A DNA stretch of 64,000 nt from Planctomycetota bacterium (GTDB taxonomy: Bacteria; Planctomycetota; Phycisphaerae; Phycisphaerales; Phycisphaeraceae): NCBI GenBank assembly GCA_024279865.1, contig JAJRRC010000008.1:1-64000 (forward strand), read 5' to 3'. The notes under the pieces are model-generated. The model saw only the letters and a list, made by a program, of their open reading frames with translations, was not told the origin of the DNA and did not search any database. Both the position numbers and the translations under genes were made by a program. Of this stretch, positions 6,001 through 49,555 are shown one piece after another (position 1 is the stretch's first letter; every line of letters begins with the position of its first letter).

Positions 6001-9000
6001 AATATCCTCACTGCCGACGGCGGCGATTCAGTTGGCGGTAATGCTGGCGACGGTGGTCTGATCCTCATCGGTACTGCGGGTAACACCGTGGGAGTTGACG
6101 ATGCAGACATCGAAATCACCCAGGCAGTCAGTGCCGGCGGCGGCAACGCAACCGGGGCAGCAGGCAATGGCGGCAACGGCGGCACAATTACCGTGGCGAC
6201 CAACGCAGTGACCGGTGGCACGATTACCGTGACAGATACCGGTAAACTCACTGCGGTGGGCGGCGATTCAACTTCGGCTCAAGGCGGCGTCGGTGGCGAT
6301 ATCGATATCACCACCACCGGCTCGGATGCAACCGTGCAGATCGACTCTGGCAGCCTCGTGTCAACCCTCGGCGGCAATGGTGCAACCAACGGCGGCAACG
6401 GCGGTGGTAATACCATCCTCATCAGCACCACGGGTACCAGTGCCTCGATTTCAGTTGATAGCACACTTGAAACCAACGGCGGCAATGCTGGCAACGGCAA
6501 TGCGGGTACCGCAGGTAACATCACCTTGCAGACCACCGGCAACACCGCTGACGTCAATGTTCGCAATGACGCAGTGATTAACGCCAACGGTGGCAACTCA
6601 ACTACAGGTGGTGCTGGCGGCGGTGGCGGAACCATCACCTTCCAAACTGCGGCTGGTAGCTCAGACATCAATGTGACTGCTGATCAGGCCATCACCGCAA
6701 CTGGCGGTACGGGTGCTGGAACCAGCAATGGTGGCACAGGTGGTGTCGTTACCATCGACACCGCATCCGGTATAGGTGCCAACGACGGCGGCATCATCAC
6801 CATCGACGACAACGTCACAATCAATACCGGCTCGGGTGCTGCAACCGGAACCGGCAATGCTGGCAACGGCCAAGCTGCCAGTGTCACGCTGACAACTCAA
6901 GGAGCTGGCAGTGACATCAACATCGGCGACTTTGTAAACATCACCACCACCGGCGGCACAGCAGCAGCTGCCCACGGCGGAACAGGCGGCGGCGTCTTGG
7001 TGACGACCTTAGGGAACACCTCTGATATCACCACACAGACTTCGCTAAACATCAACGCCAACGGCGGTGCAGCGACCACCGTGGGTAACGGTGGTGCAGC
7101 AGGTACCATCAATATCAACACAACTGGAACAACTTCCACCATCGGCCTGGGTATCAATAACACCCTTGCTGCAAATGGTGGAACAACTGATACAGGTACT
7201 GCTGGTGCCGGTGGCAACATCGACGTCATCACACTCGGAACCGGTGCAACCATCACCACTGCCAACGGACTGGCCATCAGTTCCACCGGCGGTGCTGATA
7301 CCTCCACCGGAACCGCTGGCGTCGGCGGCAACGCAGGCATCATCGATATCACAACCGCTGAGGACAACGCCAATATCACCCTCGGAACCGGATCTGTCAC
7401 AGCCTCCGGCTCAGTCGGTGGAACCACTGGCGGTGCAGCAGGCACTATCAATGTCCGAACGGGTACAGGTGCAGCAGGTGCGGGTACCGATGCTGATATC
7501 AGTATCGAGTCCACACTTACCGCAATGGGTGCTCAGGGCGTCACAGGTGCAGGCGGCAACGGCGGAGCAGTCAACATCACAACTGATGAAACGCTCTCTA
7601 CCGTCACCTTGGCTTCAACCGCAAACGTAACCACCACCGGTGGTGCCAGCGGATCACTCACAGCAGGTAACGGCGGTGCCGTCACCATCAACACTGACTT
7701 TGATAACTCTGGCAATGCTGACGGAAACACAGTTACCCTTAACAGCAACCTCGCTGCCAACGGCGGAAACGCCACAGGCACCACAGGTGCTGCTGGAACA
7801 GGCGGAACCGTGCTTGTCTCAACCGATGGCGATGCTTCAAGCATCACACTGGCTGCCACAGGCACCATCGCTGCCACAGGCGGTAACGCAACCAACGCAG
7901 GCGGCTCAGCAACCGGCGGCCTCGGCGGCACCATCACCATCGAAACGCAGAACACCGCTGGCAGCAACAATGCTGACATCACACTCAACAATACCGTTAA
8001 TGCCTCCGGCGGAACTTCCGCTGGCTCAGGCAACGCAGGTGCCGCCAACGGTGCGGTGACCATCACGACTGCTGATCTCAATAGCGACATCACCGCAACC
8101 GCAGCTATCACCAATAACGGTGGTGCTGCAACCGGCAACGGCGGCAACGGTGCAACCGTTACCGTCGCAACTTCCGGAGCAAGTGCAGCGAACATCACGC
8201 TCACCAACGTCTCAACAGCCGGCGGTGCAGCAACCGCTGGCAACGGCGGCAACGGTGGCCTAATCGACATCGATACCACAGGCACCACTTCAACCGTGGC
8301 TGTCTCCGGTGACCTCAACTCTGTCGGCGGAGCTGGCACAACCCTCGGCGGTGCAGGCGGCATCGTCAATGCCAACACCATTGGCGTTGACTCAACGATC
8401 TCCTTGGTCACCGTCACGACTGATGGCGGCTTAGCGACAACCGGAACCGGCGGAGCAGGCGGTAACGCGGTCATCGCAACGACCGGTACTTCCGGTGCTT
8501 CGATCACTGCAACGGGTGCCATCTCAACAGTCGGCGGTGCAACCACCTCTGACGATGGCGGTCTAGGCGGCAACGTCGATATCCAAACCGATGGCACAAC
8601 CAGTGCGATCACACTCTCCACCATCACCACCGACGGCGGCGACGTTGCTACTGGCGACAACGCTGCTGATAACGGTGGCAACCCCGGCACGGTGACCATC
8701 CTGACTAACTCCACAAATGACACCGCTGATTCAGATGTCACCGTCGGTGACATCTCCGCTCAAGGCGGCAGCGTCATTGGCATCGGTAACGGTGGCGGTA
8801 ACGGTGCACAGGTGAGAATCTGGACCAACGGTGGCCAAAGCAGTATCACCGGAACCAACATCACCACCAACGGTGGCACAGCTCAAACCGGTAACGGTGG
8901 TCTTGCAGGTCCTATTAACGTTCGGACACTTGAAACCGTAACGACAGCGAATTCCGATATTACCTTCTCCGGCACGCTTTCAGCTGATGGCGGTGCTTCA

Positions 9001-11700
9001 ACCGTCACCGGTAACGGTGGCAACAGCAACACAGTCTTCCTCTCCACAAGAGGTGGCCTAAGTGACATCAACCTTACGAACACGGGTACGAACATCACCA
9101 ACAGTGGTGGCAATGCTGCAACCGGCAACGGCGGCAGTGCTGGTGCGAGTATCACACTGTCAACAACCAATACGGATGCAGCAGCCAATGCCGACATCAC
9201 TGTGGCTGGCAGTATTTTGTCACTAGGTGGCAATGCAGTCACCGGCAACGGTGCAAATGGTGGCAACGTGACCGTGTCAACCAACGGCGGCGATAGTGAT
9301 ATCTTGCTCAGCAACACAACAACCAATGTCACCACCAACGGCGGCAACGGTTCAACCGGTGCTGGCAATGCTGGAACCGTGACCATCGATACCGATGGCA
9401 ACACGGCAGACATCGTGACCAACGGCACCATCAACGCCATCGGCGGTAACAACACCGCAAACGGTAATGCTGGAACCGGTAACACCGTCACCTATAACAC
9501 CAACGGAACAACTGCAACGATCCAAATCAACGGCAATATTACCACCAACGGCGGCAACGCTGTGACAGGTAATGCTGGCCAAGCTGGTGCAGTCTCCATC
9601 ACCACCACAGGCACACTCGGTGCAACGGTTGATATCAATGCAAACACCTCAGCACAGGGTGGTAACTCAACTACCTCTGGCCTCGGTGGTGCAGGTAACA
9701 CCGTGATGGTCTTGACCGACGGAACAACATCACAGATCGCCATCGACGGTACAACCAATACCTCCGGCGGTACCAGTGTTGATAGCACCGGTGGAATGGG
9801 TGGTGCTATCACCTTTGAAACAGGATTTGCCAATAACACCACGGGCAACACCAGCCCAATCCTCATCGGTGATGTCACCGATTCGGACGTTACCTTCAAC
9901 GGCGGCAACGGTGCCATTGGTGGTGCCGCGGGTAGCTTGACGATTACCAGCGATGGTAACCGTGCAGATATCCAAATCGGAACCACAACCCAGATCGCCG
10001 GTAACGGTGGTACGGGTACCACTGGCAACGGTGGCATGGGTGGTACGGTCAACGTTGATGCAGATAATGACTTCGTGGCAGGAACCACGCCTTACGATAG
10101 TGCAGACGTCATCATCGGGTCGACCATTACGGTCAACGGTGGTAACTCAACAGGTGCAACCGGTGGCAACGCTGGTACGGTCGATCTGCAAGCTGCTCGT
10201 GGCCTGACCGATGAGCCTACCAATGACCTGATTGCTCTGCCGAACGGCATCCTGGTCATCCGTGGCGATATCTCTGCCAACGGTGGCAGTGGCAGCACCG
10301 CAGCAACACGTGGCCTCGCTGGTACGATTAACCTCAATGTTCTCGGTCGTGCAACGGCCAATGACTCGGGCCGTACCATGCCTGGCATCGCTTCAGTCAT
10401 CGGTGCGAAGAATGGTTCGTTGAACCTCAATACCATCGGTCTTGAGAACTCAGGCATGATCGCTTTTGGTGCCAATGACAAGTTCACCAACCTCGGCAAC
10501 GTGACAACCTTCACCACCCGTGGCGTGGCTACCAACAACGGTATCCCAACGAACAACCCAGCGAACGGTGACGGCAACTTCTTCATCAATACCAACGGCG
10601 GTTCGGTCACCCTCAGTGACCTCACCATCGACGGTAACTTTATCATCACCGGCGATGCCCTCCTTGATGGCGGACTCGCTGAAGTTGGCTTTATTGACTT
10701 GGCTGCTCGTACACGCCAGACCGTGTTGGATCACACCGACAACAACAGCAACGGCTACAGCACCGACGACGTGATCCTTGACCAAGGACTCGACGTCATC
10801 GTCAACGGCGATATCGTCTGGCTGGATGTGACTCCTGTCACAGGGCCTGTGCTTACGGGCAACCTTGATGTCGATCCTCAGTTTGCTCTGCCTGTCGGCA
10901 ACTTCTTCACCACGACACTGCATTCTGATGCCGGCTATATCTTCCGTTCACTCACCGCGGGCTTCCCGAACCTCATCGGTCCAAACCAAGAAGTTCTCGA
11001 TGCTCACGCCATGGGTAACACGGTTGCAACGCCTGCAATTCCATTGCCTCAGGATCTCACCAATGATCTGCTTGGACCACTCGTCGGCGACGACATCTTC
11101 CGTGCGATGGACGAAGGTCCGACCCTCAGCCCAGCACAAGCTTCGGAGCTTGCTGACATCGGCGTGAATGTCAAGGACCCAACCATCAGCGAGTTGCTCG
11201 GTGTCTGGGGCATTAGCACCACACTGAACGACACGCCAGCGACCCTTGATACGCCAGCTTCTGAGTCTGAAGTATCTGCCGGCCGTTTGCCACTGGAACA
11301 GGTCACCAGCGTGCTTTCAACCTACAGCCAGTTGTTCTGGACACAGGGCGAAGTGGATGCCGAGACCGGTGAAGTTACCCAGATCAGCCAGCGTGACGGA
11401 ATTCGTCAGATTCTTGCTGATGCCGCCCGTGGGTACACCGGCAGCGATCCTGTCGAACTGCGAACACGCATCGAGACTTCCAGCGAAGAAGGTGCTCGGG
11501 TCATCGGCCAGTTGACCGAGTTGTTCACCGGGTTGGAACTCATGGGCCTCACCCCACGCGAACTGTCTGCGGTTCTGGAAAACATTGCATCGGGTATCAC
11601 CCCTGCAGGTTTGACCGCCAGCCAACTCGTCGACGCCATCGTCGCTCAGTCGCCCGCACCCATCGTGGACGACAGCACCACCGAAGGCGATGCTGAATAA
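1..11700 (+). CDS. Giant repetitive surface/adhesin-like protein (5' end outside window)
   Basis: The frame is open from base 1, so the true start lies upstream; the visible part is 3899 residues. Residues 1 to about 440 are repeats of roughly 45 residues built on LGxGxN, TGxxxF and GGxxxD. Residues 440-1140 are more irregular. Residues about 1140-3430 are dozens of repeats of about 33 residues carrying NGG, GxGGxGG and a T-T-x-G/D strand. The last 470 residues are non-repetitive and acidic, ending in EGDAE. I see no cysteine. The Gly/Asn/Thr/Ser-rich periodicity suggests a parallel beta-helix, as in filamentous-haemagglutinin-type adhesins; the role as a secreted or surface fibre is inference. 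No anchor, PEP-CTERM or autotransporter barrel is recognisable at the C-terminus. A Rho-independent terminator follows directly. Confidence 0.85.
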   Translation, partial: NGTNNLTVTGANAASFGTLDITSGTGADTIAFGGTLGSGAAVINLGNGANTFDATGVATFTDTVTYIGGTDGDSVDFANAVNATGAASFDLGAGTNNLGVVGAAVFTSTLDVTGGADDDTLAFAALTSGATTFTLGNGINTVTATGLTTLNSTLNYTGGSGTDDINLAAVTATGDVDLNLGAGTNTVDVTGATIFGANLDYTGGINGDSVDFANTLAVTGITTINLGDGTNNFNVTGGASNAQFASLTINSGTGADTIGFGGTLNASTTLISLGNGANTFDATGAAIFTDSLTYIGGTDGDSVDFASTVNVTSPATFTLGAGTNNIGAVGAATFSSTLDITSGAGNDTLAFTTLTAGATEINLGDGNNIVTVTALTTMNSTLNLVTGSGTDDLNFAAITALGNVDINMGAGSDTFDATGAVNVAGDLNIQGAAGADTVTFDNTLTTSGNTDVVVDNDGVITLNGVSNITGDMTLAVGTSSTPGTNGVVDINANVIAASLTVNGGTNAQLQLGAAAGGTAIATTNDQTYTINVLLEDTGGVVALSTAGDIRFNQVIDARDNGGAASTRGLTVNSTLGDNFFEAEVGSLGGVNQAGADADGIEFLRTDNLALNANGHDDVTSGSSYIHANVLTSGGTQIYNDAVVIADNDANLATPNSVTLQDSGTTGIFFNNTLDSDASANNLTVTVTNGAASIQFGGDGSGTLGTPDADTTADRVGGLGEFGTLTVNSPNVGPQAIVINTDQVFSSGTQIWNGNLELGNDVTLSTAQAGTGATGGAGDLSFTGIIDSDATAARDLTLVSGTGNITFGDNVGTDNVGGTDALDYLIINVADNNDRTTLLTQNANATITATSFFVEDAATANFNAQITTSGTLNGAGGALTGNTNGVDVNGTTINFNAGANVTTTPGGNGGVHLGNAGVLTIANGLAFSIDGNFLQDGGGTVITGGDITTEIGAQGTADIFFTDAVTLTETAGTGVALTTTVAAGNHGNVTFASTVDGNARRANPLTIVSGDGVGGQVDGNVLFDGNVGTTGGIGAAALGTLTIDGSGNVTSTGDIEAASVLIGTNTIISGSTALGNDLGDTVDTFARNAETDGGAVTINADGQIQVTNINTGGSAVAGANGAAVTLISTNAGINIGTAGNAGNGSIDSSGANNGAGAGGNGGNITLTTTNALAASPFNDITATNLDSSGGDSTGGAGGASGFVQIHSNNANNAAGTNASVDILGNITANGGSSTIAAGGAVGANGTNTVEITTNGVDSAVFVNGNISANGGSGQTNGAAGGNVLVSTTGNNAMIELAGDLNTNGGAGTTGSGAAAGNVTLSTVGSDAGITLDGTSTANGGNGATTGGAAGNFNLDTLDSNADITLSLAASLTANGGTGVAGAGGAGGVITLDTDDINAEINALGNLSANGAQGLTGGAAGSITLDTENTGAGTNDGSEIIVSGQVSAVGGAGTGGAAGVGGAVTFNTNGNGSTILVNPLADVTVAGGAGFTTGGNGGTVTINTDDTNSGITILSDLTGIPTILANGGVGGTGAGGTGGTIAFSTTTVGVGSAIAIDEGITVTSNGGASGTGAGGNGGNVTLATAGIDATVRLDADTTFSATGGDVTGVGALNAGTGGLVQVTTTGTGAGITISGGLNVNGGDSNLGIAGNGGNGGDGGVDTGGIVLSTMGNTADITISLTGSGTAIGGNRLGSNGGDGGLFDLDTTGTNSNIFVTGDLTASGGEALGAGRGGSGGTGIHINTTGDDSSISVFSILTTNGGDSNAGIAGNGGTIVLGTTGNSTDRNTFPDGADIEVGNDLFAIGGDSDYAGRGGIITVTTGGGIETTGDTDITLNNGTTVSAAGGNVTGAALVGTGGGTGGLVQFSTAYDNSQIDLFGDLSVNGGSAIVAGSTVAGGNAGGVSGRGIILRTAGDQSAINIHDTSALTAVGGDSIGAAGGQGGLIDIDTTGLLNSDITSIGTMSINGGAAIGGTGAGGAAGATANSGGLFINATADSSSISLFNILTADGGDSVGGNAGDGGLILIGTAGNTVGVDDADIEITQAVSAGGGNATGAAGNGGNGGTITVATNAVTGGTITVTDTGKLTAVGGDSTSAQGGVGGDIDITTTGSDATVQIDSGSLVSTLGGNGATNGGNGGGNTILISTTGTSASISVDSTLETNGGNAGNGNAGTAGNITLQTTGNTADVNVRNDAVINANGGNSTTGGAGGGGGTITFQTAAGSSDINVTADQAITATGGTGAGTSNGGTGGVVTIDTASGIGANDGGIITIDDNVTINTGSGAATGTGNAGNGQAASVTLTTQGAGSDINIGDFVNITTTGGTAAAAHGGTGGGVLVTTLGNTSDITTQTSLNINANGGAATTVGNGGAAGTININTTGTTSTIGLGINNTLAANGGTTDTGTAGAGGNIDVITLGTGATITTANGLAISSTGGADTSTGTAGVGGNAGIIDITTAEDNANITLGTGSVTASGSVGGTTGGAAGTINVRTGTGAAGAGTDADISIESTLTAMGAQGVTGAGGNGGAVNITTDETLSTVTLASTANVTTTGGASGSLTAGNGGAVTINTDFDNSGNADGNTVTLNSNLAANGGNATGTTGAAGTGGTVLVSTDGDASSITLAATGTIAATGGNATNAGGSATGGLGGTITIETQNTAGSNNADITLNNTVNASGGTSAGSGNAGAANGAVTITTADLNSDITATAAITNNGGAATGNGGNGATVTVATSGASAANITLTNVSTAGGAATAGNGGNGGLIDIDTTGTTSTVAVSGDLNSVGGAGTTLGGAGGIVNANTIGVDSTISLVTVTTDGGLATTGTGGAGGNAVIATTGTSGASITATGAISTVGGATTSDDGGLGGNVDIQTDGTTSAITLSTITTDGGDVATGDNAADNGGNPGTVTILTNSTNDTADSDVTVGDISAQGGSVIGIGNGGGNGAQVRIWTNGGQSSITGTNITTNGGTAQTGNGGLAGPINVRTLETVTTANSDITFSGTLSADGGASTVTGNGGNSNTVFLSTRGGLSDINLTNTGTNITNSGGNAATGNGGSAGASITLSTTNTDAAANADITVAGSILSLGGNAVTGNGANGGNVTVSTNGGDSDILLSNTTTNVTTNGGNGSTGAGNAGTVTIDTDGNTADIVTNGTINAIGGNNTANGNAGTGNTVTYNTNGTTATIQINGNITTNGGNAVTGNAGQAGAVSITTTGTLGATVDINANTSAQGGNSTTSGLGGAGNTVMVLTDGTTSQIAIDGTTNTSGGTSVDSTGGMGGAITFETGFANNTTGNTSPILIGDVTDSDVTFNGGNGAIGGAAGSLTITSDGNRADIQIGTTTQIAGNGGTGTTGNGGMGGTVNVDADNDFVAGTTPYDSADVIIGSTITVNGGNSTGATGGNAGTVDLQAARGLTDEPTNDLIALPNGILVIRGDISANGGSGSTAATRGLAGTINLNVLGRATANDSGRTMPGIASVIGAKNGSLNLNTIGLENSGMIAFGANDKFTNLGNVTTFTTRGVATNNGIPTNNPANGDGNFFINTNGGSVTLSDLTIDGNFIITGDALLDGGLAEVGFIDLAARTRQTVLDHTDNNSNGYSTDDVILDQGLDVIVNGDIVWLDVTPVTGPVLTGNLDVDPQFALPVGNFFTTTLHSDAGYIFRSLTAGFPNLIGPNQEVLDAHAMGNTVATPAIPLPQDLTNDLLGPLVGDDIFRAMDEGPTLSPAQASELADIGVNVKDPTISELLGVWGISTTLNDTPATLDTPASESEVSAGRLPLEQVTSVLSTYSQLFWTQGEVDAETGEVTQISQRDGIRQILADAARGYTGSDPVELRTRIETSSEEGARVIGQLTELFTGLELMGLTPRELSAVLENIASGITPAGLTASQLVDAIVAQSPAPIVDDSTTEGDAE

Positions 11701-26691: not shown

Positions 26692-27606
26692 TTACAACAG
26701 CGACTGCATTAACATCGCGTGGTCGATTTGCCCGTGATGATGGGTTTGCCCCGTATCCAGATTGCAGAGCATCAATTGGGCGGGAGAACTGCAAGAGCCG
26801 GGGGTGCTTCCGGGGGTGCTTCCGGGGGTGGGGGAGAGTTGTTCTGCCATGAGCTGGGTTAGTGATTCGTCATCGCCGCGTACCATGAGGGTCACTTGTC
26901 CGCCGTAGCGAATCGCATCGTTCGCGCGACCGATGGCAGCCTCATCATCCTTGGCCACCGGCGGCAACGGTGCAGAACCAAATCCGCCTACTACCCGTTT
27001 GAGATTAAATTGCAGTTTGTGCAATTGCGTCATTACCGTTTGGACCGACCGGGCGGCCGCTTGGACCGATCCGACCAAACTGGCCGGCCGAGCGCAAATT
27101 AACGTGAGATGATGTTGTTGAATGCCACAGGCAATGGCCAGTTCATTAATGATTTCACGCGATGGCAAGGAATCTGTTTGGAGGACGCCGATCGCGCAGC
27201 CGGAGTTTTCAGTAAAGCCGATTTCCTTGAACAAAGGTTCTTTGCCTGCTGCTGCGCGAAAGGGGCCTGACCCCAGGGCAAAAAAGTTTTCACTTTTAAG
27301 TTCCCAGCCAGCATATTGGCTTGCCATGCAAGCTGCGACCGGGTGATTTACATTGACCGTGATCTGAGGCAAGGGAACAGAGCCCATCTGTCCAGGGATC
27401 ATTTGCACCGTCCCCAGATCCGCCAAGCAAGCTCGCGCGACCCACAGCCCTGCATTAAGGCTGCCCAGCGTGTTCACCCCCGCGTCAATGATCCGAGCGC
27501 CCGCCCGGTTCTCCACGCGCACGCCAAGCTCGGCGGCTCGACGTTCAAGTTCATTGGCAATCACCAATGTTCGATCATTCAGTCCCGGCAGATTACCCGT
27601 TGCCAT
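26692..27606 (-). CDS. mch: Methenyl-tetrahydromethanopterin cyclohydrolase
   Basis: 304 residues. Mch interconverts methenyl-H4MPT and N5-formyl-H4MPT in the H4MPT-linked C1 pathway. Recognisable family segments are LNAGLWVARACLADLG, ALGSGPFRAAAGKEPLF, CAIGVLQTDSLPS and the late NDAIRYGGQVTLMV. Near the C-terminus GSTPGSTPGS, coded by three tandem R1 units, is inserted where relatives run straight into the SPA strand (here SPAQLMLCNLDTG). The start overlaps fhcC by 28 bases, so it is the last gene of fhcD-fhcC-mch. Confidence 0.92.
   Translation of the reverse strand: MATGNLPGLNDRTLVIANELERRAAELGVRVENRAGARIIDAGVNTLGSLNAGLWVARACLADLGTVQMIPGQMGSVPLPQITVNVNHPVAACMASQYAGWELKSENFFALGSGPFRAAAGKEPLFKEIGFTENSGCAIGVLQTDSLPSREIINELAIACGIQQHHLTLICARPASLVGSVQAAARSVQTVMTQLHKLQFNLKRVVGGFGSAPLPPVAKDDEAAIGRANDAIRYGGQVTLMVRGDDESLTQLMAEQLSPTPGSTPGSTPGSCSSPAQLMLCNLDTGQTHHHGQIDHAMLMQSLL
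26798..26834 (+). repeat. R1 tandem repeats inside mch
   Basis: GCCGGGGGTGCTTCCGGGGGT followed by GCTTCCGGGGGTGGGGG, with a 12-base period. On the mch strand it encodes TPGS repeats. Three G5 tracts and a final GGGGG satisfy a G-quadruplex pattern on the plus strand. Confidence 0.7.
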
Positions 27607-28337
27607 ATTTCAGCCTTGTTTAGTTCAGTCTGATTGCCGGTGAATAGCTTGAATTTTGCGTTGAGCCAATGGGCGTTCAGAGGAAAGTTCAGTTCTTGTA
27701 AGCGTTTTAAGATCAAACGGACCACGGGCAATGCAAATTCGCCCTCGGCCGCAAAACGACCTTTGATTTCTAAATCTGTTTCTGTATCGAGATAAAGCAA
27801 TGTGCCTCGCTGCATTTCAAGGCCGGGGGTGTGCGGGCAAGTTTGCTTGCCTAGAACCAGCGTCCCAGCGAACATGCGATAGCCTGGTAATTTTCCGCAG
27901 GTTCCTGCGATGGCAATGAGTCCTCGACGCATCAGTAGGCCCGCGTGGTCGCCTGCGTTGCCTAGGACCACAATTTCTCCGCCGCCGATGCCCACGGGTT
28001 GGTCGTTGGCGGGTCCGCCGACGCGGTCGCCGCAGTTACCTGTGACGTGGATGATGCCGTAGGCCATGGAACTGCCTAGGTCATCGCCCGCATCGCCTTG
28101 GATGATGAGTTGGCCGCCCGCCATTTGAGAGCCGAGGTGGTCGAGTTTTGGTGGGTTGATGAGTGTGAGGGTGTTGCCTGGTTTGCCTGTGATTTCGAAC
28201 AGGTCGGTGAGTTTGATTTGTTCACGTCCGATGGGCATGGTCGCGGTCATCGGGTCACAGGCAGGGGTGAGGATCGAGCCATCGGTGGGCATGGGCAGCC
28301 GCATGGATTTCCAGGTGAGGGTGTAGCCTTGGCTCAT
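27579..28337 (-). CDS. fhcC: Formyltransferase/hydrolase complex subunit C
   Basis: 252 residues, homologous to FwdC/FmdC of formylmethanofuran dehydrogenase. The beta-helix glycine pattern is clear: MAGGQLIIQGDAGDDLGSSMAYG, GNCGDRVGG and GNAGDHAGLLMRRGLIAIAGTCG. In bacteria the Fhc complex (A, B, C, D) hydrolyses formyl-methanofuran to formate. The start overlaps the fhcD stop as ATGA. fhcA and fhcB are not in the window. Confidence 0.92.
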   Translation of the reverse strand: MSQGYTLTWKSMRLPMPTDGSILTPACDPMTATMPIGREQIKLTDLFEITGKPGNTLTLINPPKLDHLGSQMAGGQLIIQGDAGDDLGSSMAYGIIHVTGNCGDRVGGPANDQPVGIGGGEIVVLGNAGDHAGLLMRRGLIAIAGTCGKLPGYRMFAGTLVLGKQTCPHTPGLEMQRGTLLYLDTETDLEIKGRFAAEGEFALPVVRLILKRLQELNFPLNAHWLNAKFKLFTGNQTELNKAEIWQRVICRD

Positions 28338-29245
28338 GGGGTTTCTCCCATGACATCGTGCAAGTGGAATTGATATTTACCGAGCTTGCCTTGGTAGTTG
28401 CCTGCGGTGATGGCGGCGATGTTCCATTGACAGGCTGTTTCGATGCCGACTTGCATGGCCGTGGTGATACTTTTTTCGGTAAGCCCGTTGATAATAATCT
28501 CGTAGATGGCGGTGATGTCAGGTTGTACTTTTGAATGCGTGCGATTTTTGAGAGTCGGACAGTATTGATCGTGGGTCGAGGCGATTTGATTTTTGTAGCG
28601 TGAGCCGACTTTGGACCCACTGCGTGCGATGCCGCCGGGGAACGGGGTGATGACGTTGGGCAAGGGTGCGATGGCTTAGACGGCCGCGGTTGCTGCGTGA
28701 AGGGTGGTGAGTTGATCTTTGCCGCAGATGAGTAAGTTACCGCCGGCAATGGCTTTTTGTGAGCCGACGGTTTCTTCGATTAAGCATTCGCCGTCCATGA
28801 CGGGGATGCGCCAAAATCGTTTGCCGCCAAGGTGTTTACTTTTTTGGAAGCCGTCACCAAAGTAGCGAATATTTTGACCCAAGGGGAAACGGGTCGATTG
28901 ATCTGTTTCAGTTGCCCGAGGCATGCCGTCGTAAATCGCAGTGGTCGGGCAGGTGAGCAAACTTTGTTCAGTCCGGTTTTGAACAGCCTTGGCGAGCGCG
29001 TTTGCGTTGAATGCGAAGAACAAAATCGCCACGCCCGGCCGACCGTCAGGCGTTTGATCGCCGGTGAGCCATTGCTCGACCCCCACTTCAGCGTCACAGC
29101 CGATGATGCTGGCTCCATAACCGGTCGCTTCGGTGGCTGCTACGCGAGCCCAATGTTCGTTGATCGCTGTCACGATCAATCGACAGGCCCACATGTCAAA
29201 GGCCTCGGCAAACTCGTTTTCAATGATGGTGTTTTGATATTTCAT
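28334..29245 (-). pseudogene. fhcD: Formylmethanofuran:H4MPT formyltransferase, interrupted by an in-frame TAA
   Basis: A 303-codon frame covers the whole Ftr/FhcD family: MKYQNTIIENEFAEAFDMW at the start, LTCPTTAIYDGMP, LGQNIRYFGDGFQ and RFWRIPVMDGECLIEETVG in the middle, then PNVITPFPGGIARSGSKVGS and AGNYQGKLGKYQFHLH at the end. A TAA at 28678-28676, after codon 189 (context AATAAV-stop-AIAPLPNV), cuts it without any frameshift. Relatives have Ala or Glu there, so one base change (GAA to TAA) would explain it. It may be a real nonsense mutation, a sequencing error or a readthrough site; a TTG at 28663 could restart the C-terminal part. The downstream fhcC and mch frames are intact. Function: formyl transfer between H4MPT and methanofuran. 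Confidence 0.85.
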
Positions 29246-29263
29246 GTTTGGCAGACCGTTATA

Positions 29264-29367
29264 ATACCAATCCCATTTAAAACTCGTGCGAATGGTGATT
29301 CGCAGAGAGTTGGATTGAGAAGGTTTTATGAAAATCTCAACGCGTACATCATAGATGCGATGCGTAT
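29264..29367 (+). repeat. R2 element filling the fhcD / MfnF-like intergenic gap
   Basis: 104 bp from ATACCAATCCCATTTAAAAC to GCGATGCGTAT, about 90 per cent identical by eye to the inverted copy at 35081-35184. The outermost bases are ATAC and GTAT. It occupies most of the 135 bases between two divergent genes, so both promoters must lie in or beside it; TATAAT occurs at 29365-29370. Confidence 0.75.
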
Positions 29368-29380
29368 AATACCAAGCGAT

Positions 29381-30334
29381 ATGAAAAAATTTCCATTGGG
29401 TTTGGACATCGGCGGGGCCAATATCAAAGCGTTCAGCCACGGCCGGGCGGTCAATCATCCGTTTGCGCTGTGGCGTGAGCCTGCGGAGTTGGCCAATCAA
29501 TTGGCTCAAATACGAAATCAGTTTGAGGCAGTGGGTTCGTTGCGGATTACGATGACGGGCGAGTTGTGTGATTGTTATTTGTCCAAAGATCAAGGGGTGA
29601 ACGCGATTCTTGATGCCGTTGAAACGGTTGCTGAGGATTGGCCCATTGAAGTTTGGAGCACTGAAGGCTGTTTTGTGAGCTTGTGCGAGGCACGTCAAAA
29701 AACCTTGGCGGTGGCAGCGGGGAATTGGCATGTTTTGGCGACGTATGTGGCCCAGCTTGACCCGCAAAGTTCAACGCTGTTGGTGGACATGGGTTCGACG
29801 ACGACGGATTTGATTCCGCTGCGTGATGGGCAGGTCTGCGCCAAGGGTTTAACAGACACGGGACGTTTGGAGCATGGCGAGTTAATTTATTTGGGTGCGA
29901 CACGTACGCCGTTGATGGCGTTGGGGCCGACGGTCGGGCAGATGCCGATCATGGCGGAGCATTTTGCGACGATGCTGGATGTGGCGGTGTTGTTGGGGAA
30001 GATTGCTGAAGATGCCGCTGATGGCCAGACAGCCGACAAGCAGCCTCGCACAAAAGAAGCTTCGGCGAGACGTTTGTTACGCATGGTCGGTGGAGATTTA
30101 GACAGCATGTCGATCACGCAGGCCGAACAGCTGGCGTGGCAGTTTTTTAAACAGGCGGTATCGCGTTTGGCTGATGGGATTCAAAAGCACACTTTTGACC
30201 AGATCGTTCTCAGCGGTAGTGGCGCGTTTCTTGCAAGAGAGGCGATGGGCGAGATGCCGGTCGTGGACCTCGCTTCACAGATCGGAACTGAAGCCTCTGC
30301 CAGCGCGTGCGCTTTTGCGTTGTGTCAGGTTTGA
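29381..30334 (+). CDS. H4MPT-linked C1 pathway kinase-like protein (MfnF/hydantoinase-oxoprolinase family)
   Basis: 317 residues from ATG 29381; the frame is open upstream through the R2 repeat and antisense to fhcD, which I do not take as coding. ASKHA-type motifs are LGLDIGGANIKAF (residues 6-18), LLVDMGSTTTDLIPL and IVLSGSGAFLA. The family is found beside methanofuran/H4MPT genes in archaea, methylotrophs and planctomycetes, and MfnF of Methanocaldococcus joins the two halves of methanofuran. I infer methanofuran-type cofactor synthesis. It is divergent from fhcD-fhcC-mch. Confidence 0.85.
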   Translation: MKKFPLGLDIGGANIKAFSHGRAVNHPFALWREPAELANQLAQIRNQFEAVGSLRITMTGELCDCYLSKDQGVNAILDAVETVAEDWPIEVWSTEGCFVSLCEARQKTLAVAAGNWHVLATYVAQLDPQSSTLLVDMGSTTTDLIPLRDGQVCAKGLTDTGRLEHGELIYLGATRTPLMALGPTVGQMPIMAEHFATMLDVAVLLGKIAEDAADGQTADKQPRTKEASARRLLRMVGGDLDSMSITQAEQLAWQFFKQAVSRLADGIQKHTFDQIVLSGSGAFLAREAMGEMPVVDLASQIGTEASASACAFALCQV

Positions 30335-30335
30335 T

Positions 30336-32552
30336 TCAGTTCAATTCCGTGGCGTACCAGGTCGCCTGGGTTCCCACGTGAATTTCGGTGAGCAAGTGCA
30401 ATTGAACGCCCACGTCCAAATTAGAGATCAGGGCTGTGGCTGCTTTGGCGTTGTCCGAGAACAGATGGACAAGGGGTTGTTGCTGCGCATCAAAACGAGC
30501 TTGTCGTTGTGTCATTTGCAAGAGGTCTAAGTGTTGATTGACCCATCCGCGTGCATCGAGCAGTCCTAGTAGGGTTTCGCCAATAGAGCCTTGGGCTTGT
30601 TGGTGTTGGGCGAGCAGATGAAGTTTGCCTTGCTCGTCTAAGACGAGTTGTGTTTGTGGATGGTGTGGGCAACGTGCGGTCAGGGCCAATCCGCCGACGA
30701 TGAAAGAGCTGAGCAAGGGAGGTTGCTCAGAGGCTTGGGCAGTAGTGGGCTCGGCAGCAAAGGGTTTTAGTTGTGGTTGTGGTTTTGCTTGTGGCGTTTG
30801 TACTTGAGGCGTAGGTTGTGCCACGGGCCGAGCTGTTTGCGTGACAATCTGTGGCGGCACAATCTGAGCGGTTGCCAAGACAGGCTCGGGCGCTTGCCCA
30901 GCAGCGGCAACTGTTTCGGGAGCGACTTCAGATGGCATCTCTGAAACTTCCGGGGGGGCAGCTTGTTTCTTTTTTGCTTCTTCGTGTTTGAGGCGTTCGA
31001 CGAAGGCTGCCACCGTGCTTGGCACGACATGTGGCTGGGCATCGTTGGCTATTGGAGCCACGGGTGTGTCTTCTAAAATTTCCTCGACCACCGGGGCTGT
31101 TGTTGCTGAAGGAATTTCTTGGACGGTTTCCACCGCAGCTTGTGGCATTGTTTCGGGGGCGGTTTCGGAGAGAATTTCGGAGGCAACTTCCGGGGTCACT
31201 TCCGGGGGCGGGGATTCTTGAGGTGGTGCGATGGGGAGGTATGGCTGATCGGTGAGCAAGGTGAACAGCGAAGGCCATTGATCCATATCCAGCTCAAAGC
31301 TTCCCATGGCTTGGAGGTGGACGGGCATCATTTGCTTTTGCACACCGACGAGATTTACCGTCAAGTCGTAGGCTGTATCTGCTCGGGTATCAAGTTGCCG
31401 AACCATGGCCACCGCCGGGTCGACGTCACTGCCCATGGCCATCATTTGCACGCATTCAGGGTGCTCAATTTGTGTTTCATCAAGGATCTGTCCCAGCCAT
31501 CGCAAGGCCGCTTCACCAGCCGCTTCATCAATGCCTGAAATCAACGTCCAAGTCCCCGCGTCGCGGGCAATCTGAGCCAGTGAATCTGACAGCGGCGTGT
31601 CCATGTGGATGAGCCATGCTTTGATCAGATAAGGCGATTGGGCTAGCTGGGCCATTGCAATTTGAGGAGAGGTTTGGGGAGGAGCTTGTATCGCTCGCAA
31701 TTGAGCGATGATCCCGTCTGCCGTAGAGCTGTTGAGTTTTTCCCGCATGGCCATCAGGTCTGAGCGGCGATCGGATCGGCTGACGATGTCCAGATCAATT
31801 TGTTCGTCATCAATATGCAAAATACCCACGAGCCCACATTCATTGGCCAGGTGGTTGGCGTATTGGGTCATCCAAGGCGACGCAAACCCAGGCAGGTTCC
31901 CCAAGAAGACCGCTTCCACGCGTGTGGGTGTGGTCGAGGGCTGCGGTGGCGGCGTTTGAAGCGATTGCCGTATTTCCGACGCGATCTGTTGGGGCGTGGG
32001 GTGTGTGGGAATGTCAGTTTTTAAGGCTGCTCGCGGAGCAACTTCGTCAGGCGGCACAGGGACGGCTAAGGGCGATACGTTTTCGCGGGCGAGCTGTAAT
32101 GCAGGAGCAATCGTTTGGGAATAAGTGGTGGCATCCGCAGCGTGGGGCTGGGGAATGGTGGGCAGCTTGGGAGCCAATCGCACCGGTGGCGGTCCTTCCC
32201 ACAAAGCGTCAGTTCTTCCCTCTGGAAGTGCGCCCGGCATCGTGCCGGGCAGTTCCCCTGAATAGGTTTCTTCTGTCACCTCAACGGTGACAACCCCCCC
32301 AGTTCCCCCGGCCCCCCCGGTCCCCCCGGTTCCCCCTGAGAATGTGACAGAGCCACCGACGTTTCCGGGGGATACCCGTTGGCGCGAGGTGGTTTGGCGC
32401 TCGCGGGCAATACCTTTGCCATCAGGCAAGGTACTGTCCGTCGTAGCTTCGGTTTCGGGCAGGAACAAATCACCGAACGCGTCTAACTCGTATTCGGTAC
32501 GTTGCTGGTCCACCGACAACGCCCTCTGGTTAACTAAATAATAAAATTGCAT
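30336..32552 (-). CDS. Large Pro/Gln-rich protein encoded with the ParA-CBM48 gene, function unknown
   Basis: 738 residues from ATG 32552 (GTG 32558 is the alternative). Residues 70-105 are Gly-rich (GGTGGTGGAGGTGG) and come from R1 G-runs. Residues about 215-430 (EAVFLGNLPGFASPWMTQYANHLA, LVGILHIDDEQIDLDIVSR, YLIKAWLIHMD) look like a P-loop ATPase of the MinD/ParA type whose Walker A Lys is lost. Residues 450-620 are Pro/Glu/Gln-rich linker. The final 120 residues form a second compact domain (LALTARCPHHPQTQLVLDEQGKLHLL). It lies 62 bases after the ParA gene on the same strand and ends one base from the MfnF-like gene end. A partner of the ParA protein is likely, but this is only context. 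Confidence 0.7.
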   Translation of the reverse strand: MQFYYLVNQRALSVDQQRTEYELDAFGDLFLPETEATTDSTLPDGKGIARERQTTSRQRVSPGNVGGSVTFSGGTGGTGGAGGTGGVVTVEVTEETYSGELPGTMPGALPEGRTDALWEGPPPVRLAPKLPTIPQPHAADATTYSQTIAPALQLARENVSPLAVPVPPDEVAPRAALKTDIPTHPTPQQIASEIRQSLQTPPPQPSTTPTRVEAVFLGNLPGFASPWMTQYANHLANECGLVGILHIDDEQIDLDIVSRSDRRSDLMAMREKLNSSTADGIIAQLRAIQAPPQTSPQIAMAQLAQSPYLIKAWLIHMDTPLSDSLAQIARDAGTWTLISGIDEAAGEAALRWLGQILDETQIEHPECVQMMAMGSDVDPAVAMVRQLDTRADTAYDLTVNLVGVQKQMMPVHLQAMGSFELDMDQWPSLFTLLTDQPYLPIAPPQESPPPEVTPEVASEILSETAPETMPQAAVETVQEIPSATTAPVVEEILEDTPVAPIANDAQPHVVPSTVAAFVERLKHEEAKKKQAAPPEVSEMPSEVAPETVAAAGQAPEPVLATAQIVPPQIVTQTARPVAQPTPQVQTPQAKPQPQLKPFAAEPTTAQASEQPPLLSSFIVGGLALTARCPHHPQTQLVLDEQGKLHLLAQHQQAQGSIGETLLGLLDARGWVNQHLDLLQMTQRQARFDAQQQPLVHLFSDNAKAATALISNLDVGVQLHLLTEIHVGTQATWYATELN
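30944..30964 (+). repeat. R1 copy inside the Pro/Gln-rich gene
   Basis: GAAACTTCCGGGGGGGCAGC, a single complete R1 core. On the coding strand it reads APPEVSE. Confidence 0.65.
31145..31218 (+). repeat. R1 cluster inside the Pro/Gln-rich gene
   Basis: GTTTCGGGGG, GTTTCGGAG, AATTTCGGAGG, AACTTCCGGGG and CACTTCCGGGGGCGGGG follow one another, encoding the SEVTPEVASEILSETAPETM repeats. These look like progressively decayed R1 copies. Confidence 0.6.
32294..32370 (-). repeat. R1 C-runs near the 5' end of the Pro/Gln-rich gene, G-quadruplex motif on the coding strand
   Basis: On the plus strand C7, C5, C7, C6 and C5 are separated by AGTT, GG, GGT and GGTT (32294-32336). The gene is on the minus strand, so its mRNA carries the G-tracts and could fold as an RNA quadruplex. 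A further GTTTCCGGGGG follows at 32358-32369. Confidence 0.7.
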
Positions 32553-32614: not shown

Positions 32615-33943
32615 CTAACTCACTTCTAAAATGCTGTTTAATTCACCAAACGAGTTGGTTTCCACGTCGGTGTTGTATTGATCATGCTCCCACTGGCCAT
32701 TGATGACCAAGCGATAGCGATAGCGTCCTGGAGGAATTTCCAGGCAGGTTTGGGAAACACCCATCTTCGGATCATCGCGAAGCGGCGTGGCAGTGGGGGA
32801 CCAATTGTTAAAGTCACCTGCCACGCTGATTTCGTAACCAGGCTTGGTCGGTTGAACGAACAACATGCCTTGAGAGGTCGGCTTGACGCCAAAGATGCGT
32901 TTGAGTTTTTGTGCGTTTTCCTGAGCTTTGGCCTGATTCTTTTCTGAATCAAGATCTTCGTCAGGGTCTGGCACCAAGCCCGTGCGAGCGACGGCCGGGT
33001 CCGCTGCAATTTTGTTGGTCAAGTTCGCAGCTCGCGCAGACAACGCTCGGGCTCGTTCGACCAACTCCGCAGCACGACTCAAAGCAGGGTTCGGTGACGG
33101 AGCCGCATTTTGTTCTTGTGTTTCACTGATCGTGGGCATCGGCGGATTGGCCAAAAGCCACGTGGCAAATTTCTCAAAGTCCTGCATCCCACGACTGGCA
33201 GGATCGTACTCGGTAATAGGCTGTCCAAAACTGGCAGCCTCCTTGAGCTTGCTATTAAAATTAATCACCATCGGCAACAAGTTGTCACCAAAATGACGCT
33301 TCAACTCCGAAAGAATTTCACGAGCCAACTTCGTTCGCACATCGTACATCGTGGCCAAAACCTTGTGGCGTACCTGATGACCCGTGCGACGAACCAGCAT
33401 TTGAACCGTTGCTTCTTGTTTGAAAGATCCCTGTAATGCGAAATAGCCCGTTTCAACCGGGACGATCACTTCATCACAAGCCCGCAACGCATTGAACGTT
33501 AACAGGCCAATTGAAGGGGGACAGTCAATCACGCAAAAATCGTAGTTGTGTTGAACCGTGCTTAAAACCTGGACCAAGCGTCGGTCTTTGTCCGGGGCAG
33601 TGGCAAGTTGTTGTTCAACGCCCGCCAAAGCAGTGGTGCTGGGGGCCAAGTCAAAACATCGGGAAATCTGCCAGACCACATCCGCCATGGCCATCGAGCC
33701 ATCAAGCCCCGCCAAGAGCACATCCGCCATGGAACGGCTCATTTGTGCTTCAGGCACAGCTAAACCCAAGGCACAGTGGCCTTGAGGGTCCATATCCACA
33801 AGCAGTGTTCGCTGGTTTTCACCGGCAAGGACTGCAGCAAGATTGATCGCCACGGTTGTTTTCCCGCAGCCACCTTTTTGGTTAATGATTGCGATGGTTC
33901 GCAATTCGCTATCCTTAGCTTGTGGAACTGTAATATCGAGCAT
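32615..33943 (-). CDS. ParA/MinD-family ATPase fused to a glycogen-binding CBM48 domain
   Basis: 442 residues. Residues 15-265 are a ParA ATPase with deviant Walker A KGGCGKTT, LLVDMDPQGHCALGLA, Walker B FCVIDCPPS, and a DNA-binding-type C-helix region. A charged linker (270-345) leads to a CBM48/AMPK-beta-like domain at 355-440, with VAGDFNNWSP and PPGRYRYRLVINGQWEHD. ParA proteins move cargo on the nucleoid; CBM48 binds alpha-glucans. Together they suggest an ATPase that positions glycogen granules or glucan-metabolising enzymes (inference). No parB or parS was seen beside it. The next gene on this strand encodes a large protein with a degenerate P-loop. Confidence 0.88.
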   Translation of the reverse strand: MLDITVPQAKDSELRTIAIINQKGGCGKTTVAINLAAVLAGENQRTLLVDMDPQGHCALGLAVPEAQMSRSMADVLLAGLDGSMAMADVVWQISRCFDLAPSTTALAGVEQQLATAPDKDRRLVQVLSTVQHNYDFCVIDCPPSIGLLTFNALRACDEVIVPVETGYFALQGSFKQEATVQMLVRRTGHQVRHKVLATMYDVRTKLAREILSELKRHFGDNLLPMVINFNSKLKEAASFGQPITEYDPASRGMQDFEKFATWLLANPPMPTISETQEQNAAPSPNPALSRAAELVERARALSARAANLTNKIAADPAVARTGLVPDPDEDLDSEKNQAKAQENAQKLKRIFGVKPTSQGMLFVQPTKPGYEISVAGDFNNWSPTATPLRDDPKMGVSQTCLEIPPGRYRYRLVINGQWEHDQYNTDVETNSFGELNSILEVS

Positions 33944-34258: not shown

Positions 34259-35005
34259 ATGGATAAAAAGCCTTGGGTTTTAGCCAGCCGTTCTCCCCGC
34301 CGCGCCTTGCTTTTAAAGGAGGCAGGGCTGGTATTTGAGCAAATGCAGCCGCCTTACGAAGACCCGCCGATGCCGCAAGCCAACGGGTTTTCGCCCGAGG
34401 AACAGGCCATGCAGATTGCCTACGCCAAAGCGAAAAGTTTGATGACCTTGATGCCCAATCGGCATCTTTTGGCGGCTGATACGTTAATTGTGTTGCCTGA
34501 TGGATCGTTGGCTGGCACGCCGACTTCGGTTGATGAAGCCAGGGAATTAATTTTAAAAATGGTGAATGCTGTTCATCATGTGGTCACGGGTGTGGCGATT
34601 GTGCAGCCACTGCGGGATTTGCAGGAATCGGGGGAGTTGTCAGGGGCAGAGGAATCCCTCGGGAAACGTCCGGGCGGGGCGGGGGAATTATTGGGGGCAG
34701 GGGAATCCCTAAGGAAGCTTCCGGGGGGACTGGGGGCAGGGGAATCCCTCGGGAAACTTCCGGGGGGGGGCGTGTTGTGTTTGGCGGATACGGCAGGGGT
34801 TCGGATCGGGCTGGTGACGGGGTCTGACATTGATCGCTATTTGCAAACCAATGCCTGGCAAGGCAAGGCAGGCGGGTATAACCTCTTTGAACGTCAACAG
34901 GCCGGTTGGCCGATTGAAGTGATAGATGGCAATGATCCGACCACGGTGGTGGGGCTTCCCATGGAGCTGATCAAGCCCTACTTGGGTTTGTCTAGATTTG
35001 TCTAG
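34259..35005 (+). CDS. maf: Maf-family nucleotide pyrophosphatase with repeat-coded insertion
   Basis: 248 residues against about 190-200 for the family. Maf motifs are intact: LASRSPRRALLL at the start, LAADTLIVL with the catalytic Asp, GTPTSVDEAR, YLQTNAWQGKAGGYNLFE and VVGLPMELI. Between VAIVQP and VLCLADTAGVRIGL there is an insertion of about 50 residues containing GAGESLRKLPGG and GAGESLGKLPGG, coded by tandem R1 repeats. It falls in the loop before a core strand and leaves both halves complete. Maf proteins hydrolyse non-canonical or excess NTPs (dTTP, UTP) and thereby limit mutagenesis or septation. Confidence 0.9.
   Translation: MDKKPWVLASRSPRRALLLKEAGLVFEQMQPPYEDPPMPQANGFSPEEQAMQIAYAKAKSLMTLMPNRHLLAADTLIVLPDGSLAGTPTSVDEARELILKMVNAVHHVVTGVAIVQPLRDLQESGELSGAEESLGKRPGGAGELLGAGESLRKLPGGLGAGESLGKLPGGGVLCLADTAGVRIGLVTGSDIDRYLQTNAWQGKAGGYNLFERQQAGWPIEVIDGNDPTTVVGLPMELIKPYLGLSRFV
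34627..34770 (+). repeat. R1 tandem repeats inside maf
   Basis: Three units of about 35-45 bp, each GGGGCAGGGGAATCCCT followed by CGGGAAACTTCCGGGGGG or a variant. This is the clearest long form of the repeat. All unit lengths together keep the reading frame. Confidence 0.85.
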
Positions 35006-35080: not shown

Positions 35081-35184
35081 ATATGCATCGCATAATATGA
35101 TGTACGCGTTGAGATTTTCATAAAGCCTTATCAATTCAGCCTCCGCGAATCACCATTCACACGAGTTTTAAATGGGATTGGTAT
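35081..35184 (-). repeat. R2 element ending at the lpxK start codon
   Basis: 104 bp, inverted relative to 29264-29367: ATATGCATCGCATAATATG to AATGGGATTGGTAT. The lpxK ATG at 35183 straddles the outer end of the element, so the leader of lpxK is the repeat. Confidence 0.75.
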
Positions 35185-36295
35185 GATAACTTTAAAAATG
35201 AATCAGGATTGTTTCATCAAAATCATGGCAGGTCGTCGTCGCGGAGCCGGTGCAGCAGTGGTCCGTGGCCTGATGAATGTGGGAACCCCCGGTTATCGAG
35301 CTGTGGTTTCAGTTCGCAATGGCATGTTTAATCAGGGTTTGCGAAAATCAACCCCCCTGGGCAAACCCACCCTCAGCGTGGGTAACATCACCACCGGCGG
35401 CACGGGGAAAACGCCCATGGTCTGTTACCTTGCCAATCAATTGATCGAAAAAGGCCTACGCCCAGCCGTGTTGATGCGAGGTTACAAGGCCACCAGTGAA
35501 CACGGTTCAGATGAAATGAATCTTGTTCAGTCCCAGTTGGGTGAGCGGGGGGTGGTGCATGCTGATCCCAGCCGGATTCAGGGCGCTCAAGCGGTGCTTG
35601 CAGAACATCGGCCTCTAGTGGATGTGTTTTTGTTGGATGATGGTTTTCAGCATCGTCAGGCAAAGCGGGATTTGGATTTGGTTTTGATTGATGCGGTGCA
35701 GCCGTTTGGCTTTGGACGCTTGTTGCCACGCGGTTTGCTACGGGAACCATTGGCCAACCTCCAGCGGGCTGATGCAATTATTCTCACCCGAGTCGATCAG
35801 GTGACCACGACCCAAAAACAACAGCTTGACGAGACCATTCAAAAAATCACAGGTCAACGGCCCATCGCCTATGTGTCTTATCCATGGGTGGGGCTTTTAG
35901 ATGCCAAAGGCCAAGAGCATTCACTTTCGATCTTGCGCGAACGTCCGGTGTTGGGAGCTTGTGGGATTGGGAATCCCCAGGCTTTTGAAGCGTCGCTTTG
36001 CGAGCATGCGTCCAAAGTCGTCGGCTGTGTCGTCAAGCCTGACCATCATGTGTGGACTCGCTCAGACATTGATGATTTACTTGATCAAGCCAAGGCCGCT
36101 GGCAATGCCCACGTGGTCATCACCGAAAAAGATTTCACCAAATTCCCCCCCCCGGAAATTTCCCCCGGAAGCTTGTCCTTGGGTGAATTTCAAGCCTCGG
36201 TTGGCTCGGTTTCGATCTTTCGGGCGCAGCAGGGGATTCATTTTGAGCGTGGCGAGGGGGCATTGGCTCAACTGATTGAAGATCGGATCATGTGA
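35183..36295 (+). CDS. lpxK: Tetraacyldisaccharide 4'-kinase
   Basis: 370 residues. LpxK phosphorylates the lipid A precursor at the inner membrane. Signatures are SVGNITTGGTGKTPMV (Walker A, residues about 67-82), RGYK, FLLDDGFQHRQAKRDLDLVLID and LLPRGLLREP, with VITEKDFTKFP near the end. After KFP the segment PPEISPGSLSLGEFQ is coded by R1 repeats, in a part of the protein that varies in the family. The start is uncertain: ATG 35183 has no ribosome-binding site, and ATGs at 35198 and 35225 are alternatives. Its presence indicates a lipopolysaccharide-bearing outer membrane. Confidence 0.9.
   Translation: MITLKMNQDCFIKIMAGRRRGAGAAVVRGLMNVGTPGYRAVVSVRNGMFNQGLRKSTPLGKPTLSVGNITTGGTGKTPMVCYLANQLIEKGLRPAVLMRGYKATSEHGSDEMNLVQSQLGERGVVHADPSRIQGAQAVLAEHRPLVDVFLLDDGFQHRQAKRDLDLVLIDAVQPFGFGRLLPRGLLREPLANLQRADAIILTRVDQVTTTQKQQLDETIQKITGQRPIAYVSYPWVGLLDAKGQEHSLSILRERPVLGACGIGNPQAFEASLCEHASKVVGCVVKPDHHVWTRSDIDDLLDQAKAAGNAHVVITEKDFTKFPPPEISPGSLSLGEFQASVGSVSIFRAQQGIHFERGEGALAQLIEDRIM
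36144..36183 (-). repeat. R1 repeats near the end of lpxK
   Basis: CCCCCCCCCGGAAATTTCC followed by CCCGGAAGCTTGTCCTTGGG; on the minus strand this is CCAAGGACAAGCTTCCGGGGG then AAATTTCCGGGGG. Confidence 0.7.
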
Positions 36296-49190: not shown

Positions 49191-49555
49191 AAAACATCGA
49201 AGTCTTGAGGCATGACCCCGTTTCATGGCTGTCAACGCACTTTTATGTTTGGCCAGAGACTTATCAGAGATTAAAGAGAAGGCTTGTAAAGGTTTTTCGA
49301 ATGCTTCGATTCGAGGCTTGCAAGAGACCAATCTTCCGGGGGGGTGAGGGTGTCCCAAAAGCCAAGGCATACCCAAGACCAACTTCCGGGGGGGATTCCC
49401 AAAAGCCAAGGTATACCCAAGGACCAACTTCCGGGGGGGATTCCCAAAAGCCAAGGTATACCCAAGACCAACTTCCGGGGGGGGGAGTCGACAATTTACC
49501 TAAATTTCGCTACCATCTGCCCACTTTAACTGTGTAGAACGGCGGCGACCCCAAT
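49191..49555. other. Gap before carB with tandem array
   Basis: No gene supported. Minus-strand frames here only read through the tandem R1 array (49336-49486). About 70 bases separate the array from the carB start; no promoter was chosen. Confidence 0.5.
49336..49486 (+). repeat. R1-based tandem array, unit about 45 bp
   Basis: Four CTTCCGGGGGGG cores at regular spacing, joined by ATTCCCAAAAGCCAAGG plus TATACCCAAGACCAA. Two units are almost identical, the first is divergent (TGAGGGTGTCCC...GGCATACCC) and the last G-run ends the array. The period is 45-46 bp. Confidence 0.85.

Follow-up and report, generated by a model that had tools for sequence, protein, structure and literature searches.

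ParA/MinD positioning ATPases and AMPK-type carbohydrate-binding modules (CBMs) are each well known. Binding of a ParA/MinD ATPase by its partner involves roughly the first 30 residues of the partner, and partners are otherwise very diverse; adaptors usually determine cargo specificity, and for many of these ATPases, termed orphans, no cargo is known (PMC10241942). The carbohydrate-binding domain of AMPK is regulatory, and its residues W100, K126, W133, L146, and T148 contact sugar and lower glycogen binding when mutated (PMC2642990). Here we describe a gene that fuses the two, found in a window of 64,000 nucleotides (the whole stretch of DNA that was analyzed) from a Planctomycetota bacterium; we refer to its product as ParA-CBM and to that of its downstream neighbor as P2 (Table 1). 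A search of open-access papers returned neither a ParA with a glycogen-binding domain nor a pseudo-MinD neighbor of the P2 kind. To our knowledge, the placing and sharing-out of glycogen in bacteria have not been described.

Table 1. Positions of the fusion gene, its domains, its neighbor, and other features of the window
Feature	Position	Strand	Description
ParA-CBM	32615..33943	-	Soj-like deviant Walker A ATPase with C-terminal AMPK-type carbohydrate-binding module, 442 aa
ParA-CBM ATPase domain (residues 13-266)	33146..33907	-	Walker motifs; DNA-contact equivalents R203 and K232
ParA-CBM linker (residues 267-350)	32894..33145	-	Partly helical, low-to-middling confidence in the AlphaFold model
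ParA-CBM AMPK1_CBM/CBM48-like domain (residues 351-442)	32618..32893	-	Pfam; alignment to AMPK-beta
P2	30336..32558	-	740 aa, GTG start, begins 56 nt past the ParA-CBM stop
GC-rich mini-repeat copies, among others	34629-34769, 36141-36171, 26794-26833, 30946-30967, 31160-31213, 49334-49485		Consensus near GGGAAACTTCCGGGGG
Inverted repeat pair	29258-29353 and 35096-35190		Roughly 96 nt; 50 nt at 94% and 43 nt at 93%
In-frame TAA	28676-28678	-	Interrupts formyltransferase-like gene
H4MPT-linked C1 cluster	26692-30334		MCH cyclohydrolase, Fhc-subunit-like gene (no Pfam match), TIGR03123 protein
Long open reading frame	124-11700	+	3858 aa, no Pfam match at 1e-5

The ParA-CBM reading frame has an ATG start and no internal stops, and both of its domains score far over their Pfam cut-offs. 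A PDB sequence search with the single chain matched the ParA structure 8ray over residues 15-257 (1.2e-46) and an AMPK-beta CBM over residues 347-441 (4e-10). The AlphaFold2 model has a mean pLDDT of 87.8, with both domains mostly above 90, and the linker between them varies from 40 to about 180 aa among homologues. Because the same architecture recurs in relatives from 77% down to about 38% identity, the fusion is neither a chance event nor an assembly join. The central claim of the sequence-only reading, that one ParA ATPase is joined to a C-terminal glycogen-binding-type domain, is therefore borne out by an intact 442-aa frame with Pfam and PDB matches to both parts. A plasmid or phage origin was set aside: searching plasmids with the CBM gave 0 matches, and the phage matches listed hit the ParA part only.

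The ATPase half carries Walker A (KGGCGKTT, 23-30), Walker A′ (DMDPQGH, 50-56), and Walker B (IDCPP, 139-143), all three invariant or nearly so among 106 aligned sequences. A deviant Walker A with its signature lysine, together with Walker A′ and Walker B, places ParA-CBM among the ParA/MinD (A/D) ATPases, in agreement with Pfam AAA_31 (residues 14-185, 1.7e-45) and with the Foldseek match 9a6n (2.4e-28, 40% identity). By sequence alignment, R203 of a DxRT motif pairs with Soj R189, whose role in DNA binding is documented in the literature, and K232 pairs with Soj R218, which we take to be a further DNA-contact arginine. The first position is Arg in 81 of the 106 family sequences and the second is Lys in 79 and Arg in 6 (together 85/106), so that judged by alignment ParA-CBM has the residues with which ParA/MinD ATPases bind their matrix, here nucleoid DNA. 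An alternative pairing of Soj R189 with Phe229, which would have meant that DNA binding was lost, is ruled out by these alignments. The intact deviant Walker A ATPase of the sequence-only reading thus stands, with two basic Soj DNA-binding positions kept in addition. A BcsQ identity was rejected at 103.3 bits against the 157.85 equivalog cut-off of TIGR03371 (NCBIfam); Pfam CBP_BcsQ does match ParA-CBM, yet it also matches an ordinary ParA of the same genome. That separate paralogue (KGGVGKTT, L116) sits on another contig, and most relatives have one too.

The C-terminal half matches AMPK1_CBM (PF16561) over residues 366-441 at 4.8e-12 (46.3 bits, where the cut-off is 26.8), and the domain alone matches the AMPK-beta2 structure 2lu3 at 4.9e-11. 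CBM_48 (PF02922) reaches 18.2 bits, under its own cut-off of 22.4, so AMPK1_CBM (CBM48-like) names the domain more precisely than the earlier CBM48/AMPK-beta-like. The genome encodes no other AMPK1_CBM. Residues W381, R411, W418, F432, E434, and N436 align with AMPK-beta W100, K126, W133, L146, T148, and N150. The five sugar contacts of AMPK therefore read W/R/W/F/E, four of them kept or conservatively replaced and T148 changed, with Glu at this position in most homologues. Among 97 homologues with a CBM, W381 is kept in all 97 and W418 in 90, the K126 position is Arg in 90, the L146 position is Phe or Tyr in 89, and the N150 position is Asn in 81. Both tryptophans persist in homologues as low as about 40% identical, as do Arg at the K126 position and Asn at the N150 position. 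A loss of all glucan-contact aromatics in homologues had been named beforehand as an outcome that would refute the glucan-partitioning idea; the counts for the two tryptophans are the opposite of such a loss.

The same fusion was also looked for across the clade, as the sequence-only reading had proposed, and it is near-universal in the class. A ParA match is present in each of 61 related genomes, and the ParA-CBM fusion itself in almost every one. In a wider survey of 394 genomes of the phylum, in which a close homologue was defined by E below about 1e-60, close ParA-CBM homologues are near-universal in Phycisphaerae and stop at the class boundary, and no fusion was found outside Phycisphaerae in this sample. 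Within the class, the exceptions comprise the three genomes of a single family (f8) and, in one genus, two genomes out of three. A scan of genome contigs gave 109 related places. Most titles among the best 80 name Phycisphaerae, Phycisphaerales, or Planctomycetota; a small number of places carry the title Actinomycetes or Alphaproteobacteria and may be mislabelled bins. A FastTree tree of the ATPase domain, rooted on a single paralogue, presented without support values, and read for coarse statements only, has the CBM on both sides of its deepest split and CBM-less sequences nested inside. This pattern makes it probable that the family began with the fusion and that at least two losses followed.

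Clustering of the genes around ParA-CBM brought out one gene family directly downstream on the same strand. With iterated profiles, the P2 family was found to adjoin the fusion in 76 of the 101 loci (of 105) that have sequence enough, leaving about a quarter of loci without P2 next door; this conserved downstream pseudo-MinD gene, which the sequence-only reading overlooked, is a new observation. In many loci the gap between the frames is under 100 nt or the frames overlap. In the present locus, a promoter scan gave no score above shuffles and a terminator scan found none on the minus strand between ParA-CBM and P2. P2 matches no Pfam family, and none of its NCBIfam results is a ParB. It evolves fast, and its best-conserved stretch is the N-terminus, which carries the motif DQQRTEYELDAFGDLFL in this protein and D..R....LDALADLFL across the family (L33 in 72/77 and L31 in 66/77). 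An N-terminal ATPase-binding stretch with a very diverse remainder is the published description of ParA/MinD partners; P2 resembles it and is the likely partner of ParA-CBM. Its model has Pro-rich disordered linkers, a MinD/FlhG-like domain (210-436), and a C-terminal alpha/beta domain (611-738). The former matches 4rz2 (Foldseek 2.3e-5; Z 10.9, rmsd 4.3, 168 aligned, and 12% identity by VIA). Its P-loop site reads GNLPGFASPW, in the family G(N/H)LPGxAxPW, and because this lysine-free sequence replaces the P-loop, conventional ATP binding by P2 is unlikely. The C-terminal domain bears a weak resemblance to 2vld, the endonuclease domain of NucS (Z 8.6, 97 aligned), and a NucS-like function was not assigned as the match is too weak to name one. 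Some family members that lack the CBM still have P2 next door, and other clades keep the CBM with no adjacent P2, so that the CBM and P2 are not strictly tied.

Several other features of the window were recorded. The GC-rich mini-repeat is dispersed on both strands and genome-wide, often within coding genes (Maf, LpxK, MCH, and P2). The sequence TTCCGGGGG has 25 copies in the window, where about 0.6 would be expected, and a genome-wide count of GGAAANTTCCGGGGG allowing at most one mismatch gave 255, compared with 2 for the reversed control. The members of the inverted repeat pair lie 5.7 kb apart, flank the segment with P2, ParA-CBM, and maf, and could mediate inversion. The gene with the in-frame TAA, presumably a formylmethanofuran-tetrahydromethanopterin formyltransferase-like gene, is either a pseudogene or the site of a sequence error; its reading frame continues past the stop.

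Linkage of the fusion to glgA, glgB, or glgP had been proposed from the sequence as something to look for. It was not borne out. Neither this genome nor about 80 named loci, searched with flanks of up to 8 kb, have alpha-glucan genes near the fusion, with the exception of one related genus in which a GH57 branching enzyme lies about 6 kb away in two members. The genome itself encodes a GH57 branching enzyme with a BE_C domain, a GlgA_Coryne-like GT4, and a TIGR02094-type alpha-glucan phosphorylase, all on contigs other than that of ParA-CBM, and has no match to canonical GlgB and none over cut-off to GlgA. In the co-occurrence comparison, matches to canonical GlgA and GlgB profiles are nearly absent, which would have been strong evidence against glycogen were it not overturned by the GH57/GT4/GT35 set of this genome, whose alpha-glucan pathway is non-classical. 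A GT35 phosphorylase is present in 35 of 41 relatives, this genome included, and ParA-CBM may bind linear or imported alpha-glucan.

Co-occurrence with branching enzymes leads to a similar result. Of the 61 relatives, 31 carry a branching enzyme of the GH57 family, 18 others have a GH13-type one (counted above 200 bits), none has both, and 12 have neither; in the wider class, one genome (G376) has both. Seven of the 12 are at least 90% complete and all seven have the CBM fusion (G040, G044, G047, G048, G056, G058, and G060). With nine further near-complete fusion genomes of the wider class (G100, G277, G334, G340, G346, G368, G384, G406, and G424), at least 16 genomes of at least 90% completeness have ParA-CBM but no recognized branching enzyme, whether of the GH13 or the GH57 (BE_C) type. 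Conversely, a GH13-type enzyme occurs in nine short-frame genomes that appear CBM-less from frame length and the absence of a second match (G043, G055, G265, G320, G350, G364, G416, G418, and G422) and in four genomes without the fusion (G223, G235, G390, and G426). Presence of the fusion therefore fails to follow branched-glycogen synthesis, and the reverse holds too. Neither the linkage to glycogen synthesis nor the co-occurrence with it that would mark a glycogen-granule partition system was found. Of the earlier idea that glycogen granules or glucan enzymes are partitioned, the alpha-glucan pathway and the kept contact tryptophans speak for it, while glg linkage and branching-enzyme co-occurrence fell away.

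The joining of a ParA to an AMPK-like glycogen-binding domain across nearly all Phycisphaerae suggests, short of proof, that glucan is placed or sensed. The reading that we put forward, plausible to us though somewhat short of an even chance, is of a Phycisphaerae-specific ParA/MinD-type positioning ATPase with an alpha-1,4-glucan-binding C-terminal module and P2 as its partner, which places or responds to intracellular alpha-glucan. Its foundation is observed (domain make-up, conservation of motifs and contact residues, clade-wide retention, and the two-gene arrangement), and from it we infer every functional step. The ATP-state dimer of ParA-CBM would bind the nucleoid, the CBM, given its kept contact residues, would tie the ATPase to alpha-glucan or a glucan-bearing cargo, and P2, a pseudo-MinD with a conserved N-terminal motif, would stimulate the ATPase or link it to cargo. 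Jointly, the two proteins would place, or respond to, intracellular alpha-glucan. We counted in favor of this glucan-positioning reading the Pfam and PDB matches of both domains, the conservation of Walker, DNA-contact, and glucan-contact residues, the clade-wide fusion with its CBM on either side of the tree root, the adjacent P2 with its conserved N-terminus, and the GT35/GH57/GT4 genes. Against it we counted the absence of a linked alpha-glucan gene, the lack of branching-enzyme tracking either way, the change of T148 to Glu, the quarter or so of loci with no adjacent P2, and the fact that CBM48-like folds may serve protein contacts only. The CBM may serve as a tether to glucan-bearing cargo or as an AMPK-like sensor; the main alternative to both is that it has become a domain for docking proteins.

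As a metabolic sensor in the manner of AMPK, the CBM would let glucan or maltodextrin switch the ParA ATPase, with P2 linking a cargo unrelated to glycogen such as the division site, a chromosome region, or a polar complex. We regard this as possible if on the unlikely side. The AMPK domain is itself regulatory (PMC2642990), the fusion persists in genomes with no recognized branching enzyme, adaptors usually carry cargo specificity (PMC10241942) and P2 is such a candidate, and the ordinary ParA paralogue accompanies ParA-CBM here and in most relatives; however, no cargo gene is consistently linked to fusion loci and the allostery is supposition. Slightly less likely in our estimation is a CBM-like domain that has lost glucan binding and become a protein-protein or dimerization module, for example to dock P2, with a cargo of another kind. 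Such a change would fit the Glu at the T148 position and the missing correlation between fusion and branching enzymes. It sits poorly with both tryptophans, the Arg, and the Asn being kept down to about 40% identity, and with CBM-less members that retain P2 next door, as the CBM is then not needed for keeping the P2 linkage. A second ParABS-like system for DNA segregation is very improbable, as the Soj-like ATPase with its DNA-contact residues would suit it but P2 has no ParB family match and no ParB neighbor of the ParABS kind is present, a separate ordinary ParA exists in the genome, and the conserved glucan module would have no reason.

ParA-CBM is a class-wide orphan ATPase equipped with a ligand-binding module of its own, in which the contact residues resemble those of AMPK, and a pseudo-MinD neighbor would be an unusual type of partner. 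If the CBM senses glucan, an energy store would be linked to cell organization in AMPK fashion. The positioning reading can be taken further, to a dedicated bacterial system in which a glucan-binding ParA and its pseudo-MinD partner spread particles of glycogen or alpha-glucan across the nucleoid and share them between daughter cells; we consider this extension doubtful, and if true it would be the first system that positions a carbohydrate store. With Soj/ParA (PDB 1wcv, 8ray, and 6iub), ParA-CBM shares the whole ATPase fold (TM to target 0.89-0.93), the deviant Walker A, and the two DNA-contact basic positions, and it differs in its linker and C-terminal AMPK-type CBM, in having no ParB neighbor, and in the ordinary ParA elsewhere in the genome. 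McdA/McdB resembles ParA-CBM/P2 in that a ParA-type ATPase stands next to a partner with disordered parts, and the cargo would again be non-DNA; the McdA structure matches the ParA-CBM model at only about 20% identity, and McdB and P2 are unrelated in domain make-up. From AMPK beta (AMPK1_CBM; PDB 1z0n and 2lu3), ParA-CBM keeps W100, W133, and N150, with K126 as Arg and L146 as Phe, but it has Glu for T148 and carries the CBM fused to a ParA ATPase rather than within a kinase-complex subunit. Finally, P2 has in residues 210-436 the fold of FlhG/FleN/MinD (4rz2), and unlike these proteins it reads GNLPGFASPW in place of the P-loop, is 12% identical, and sets the domain within a larger, partly disordered protein.
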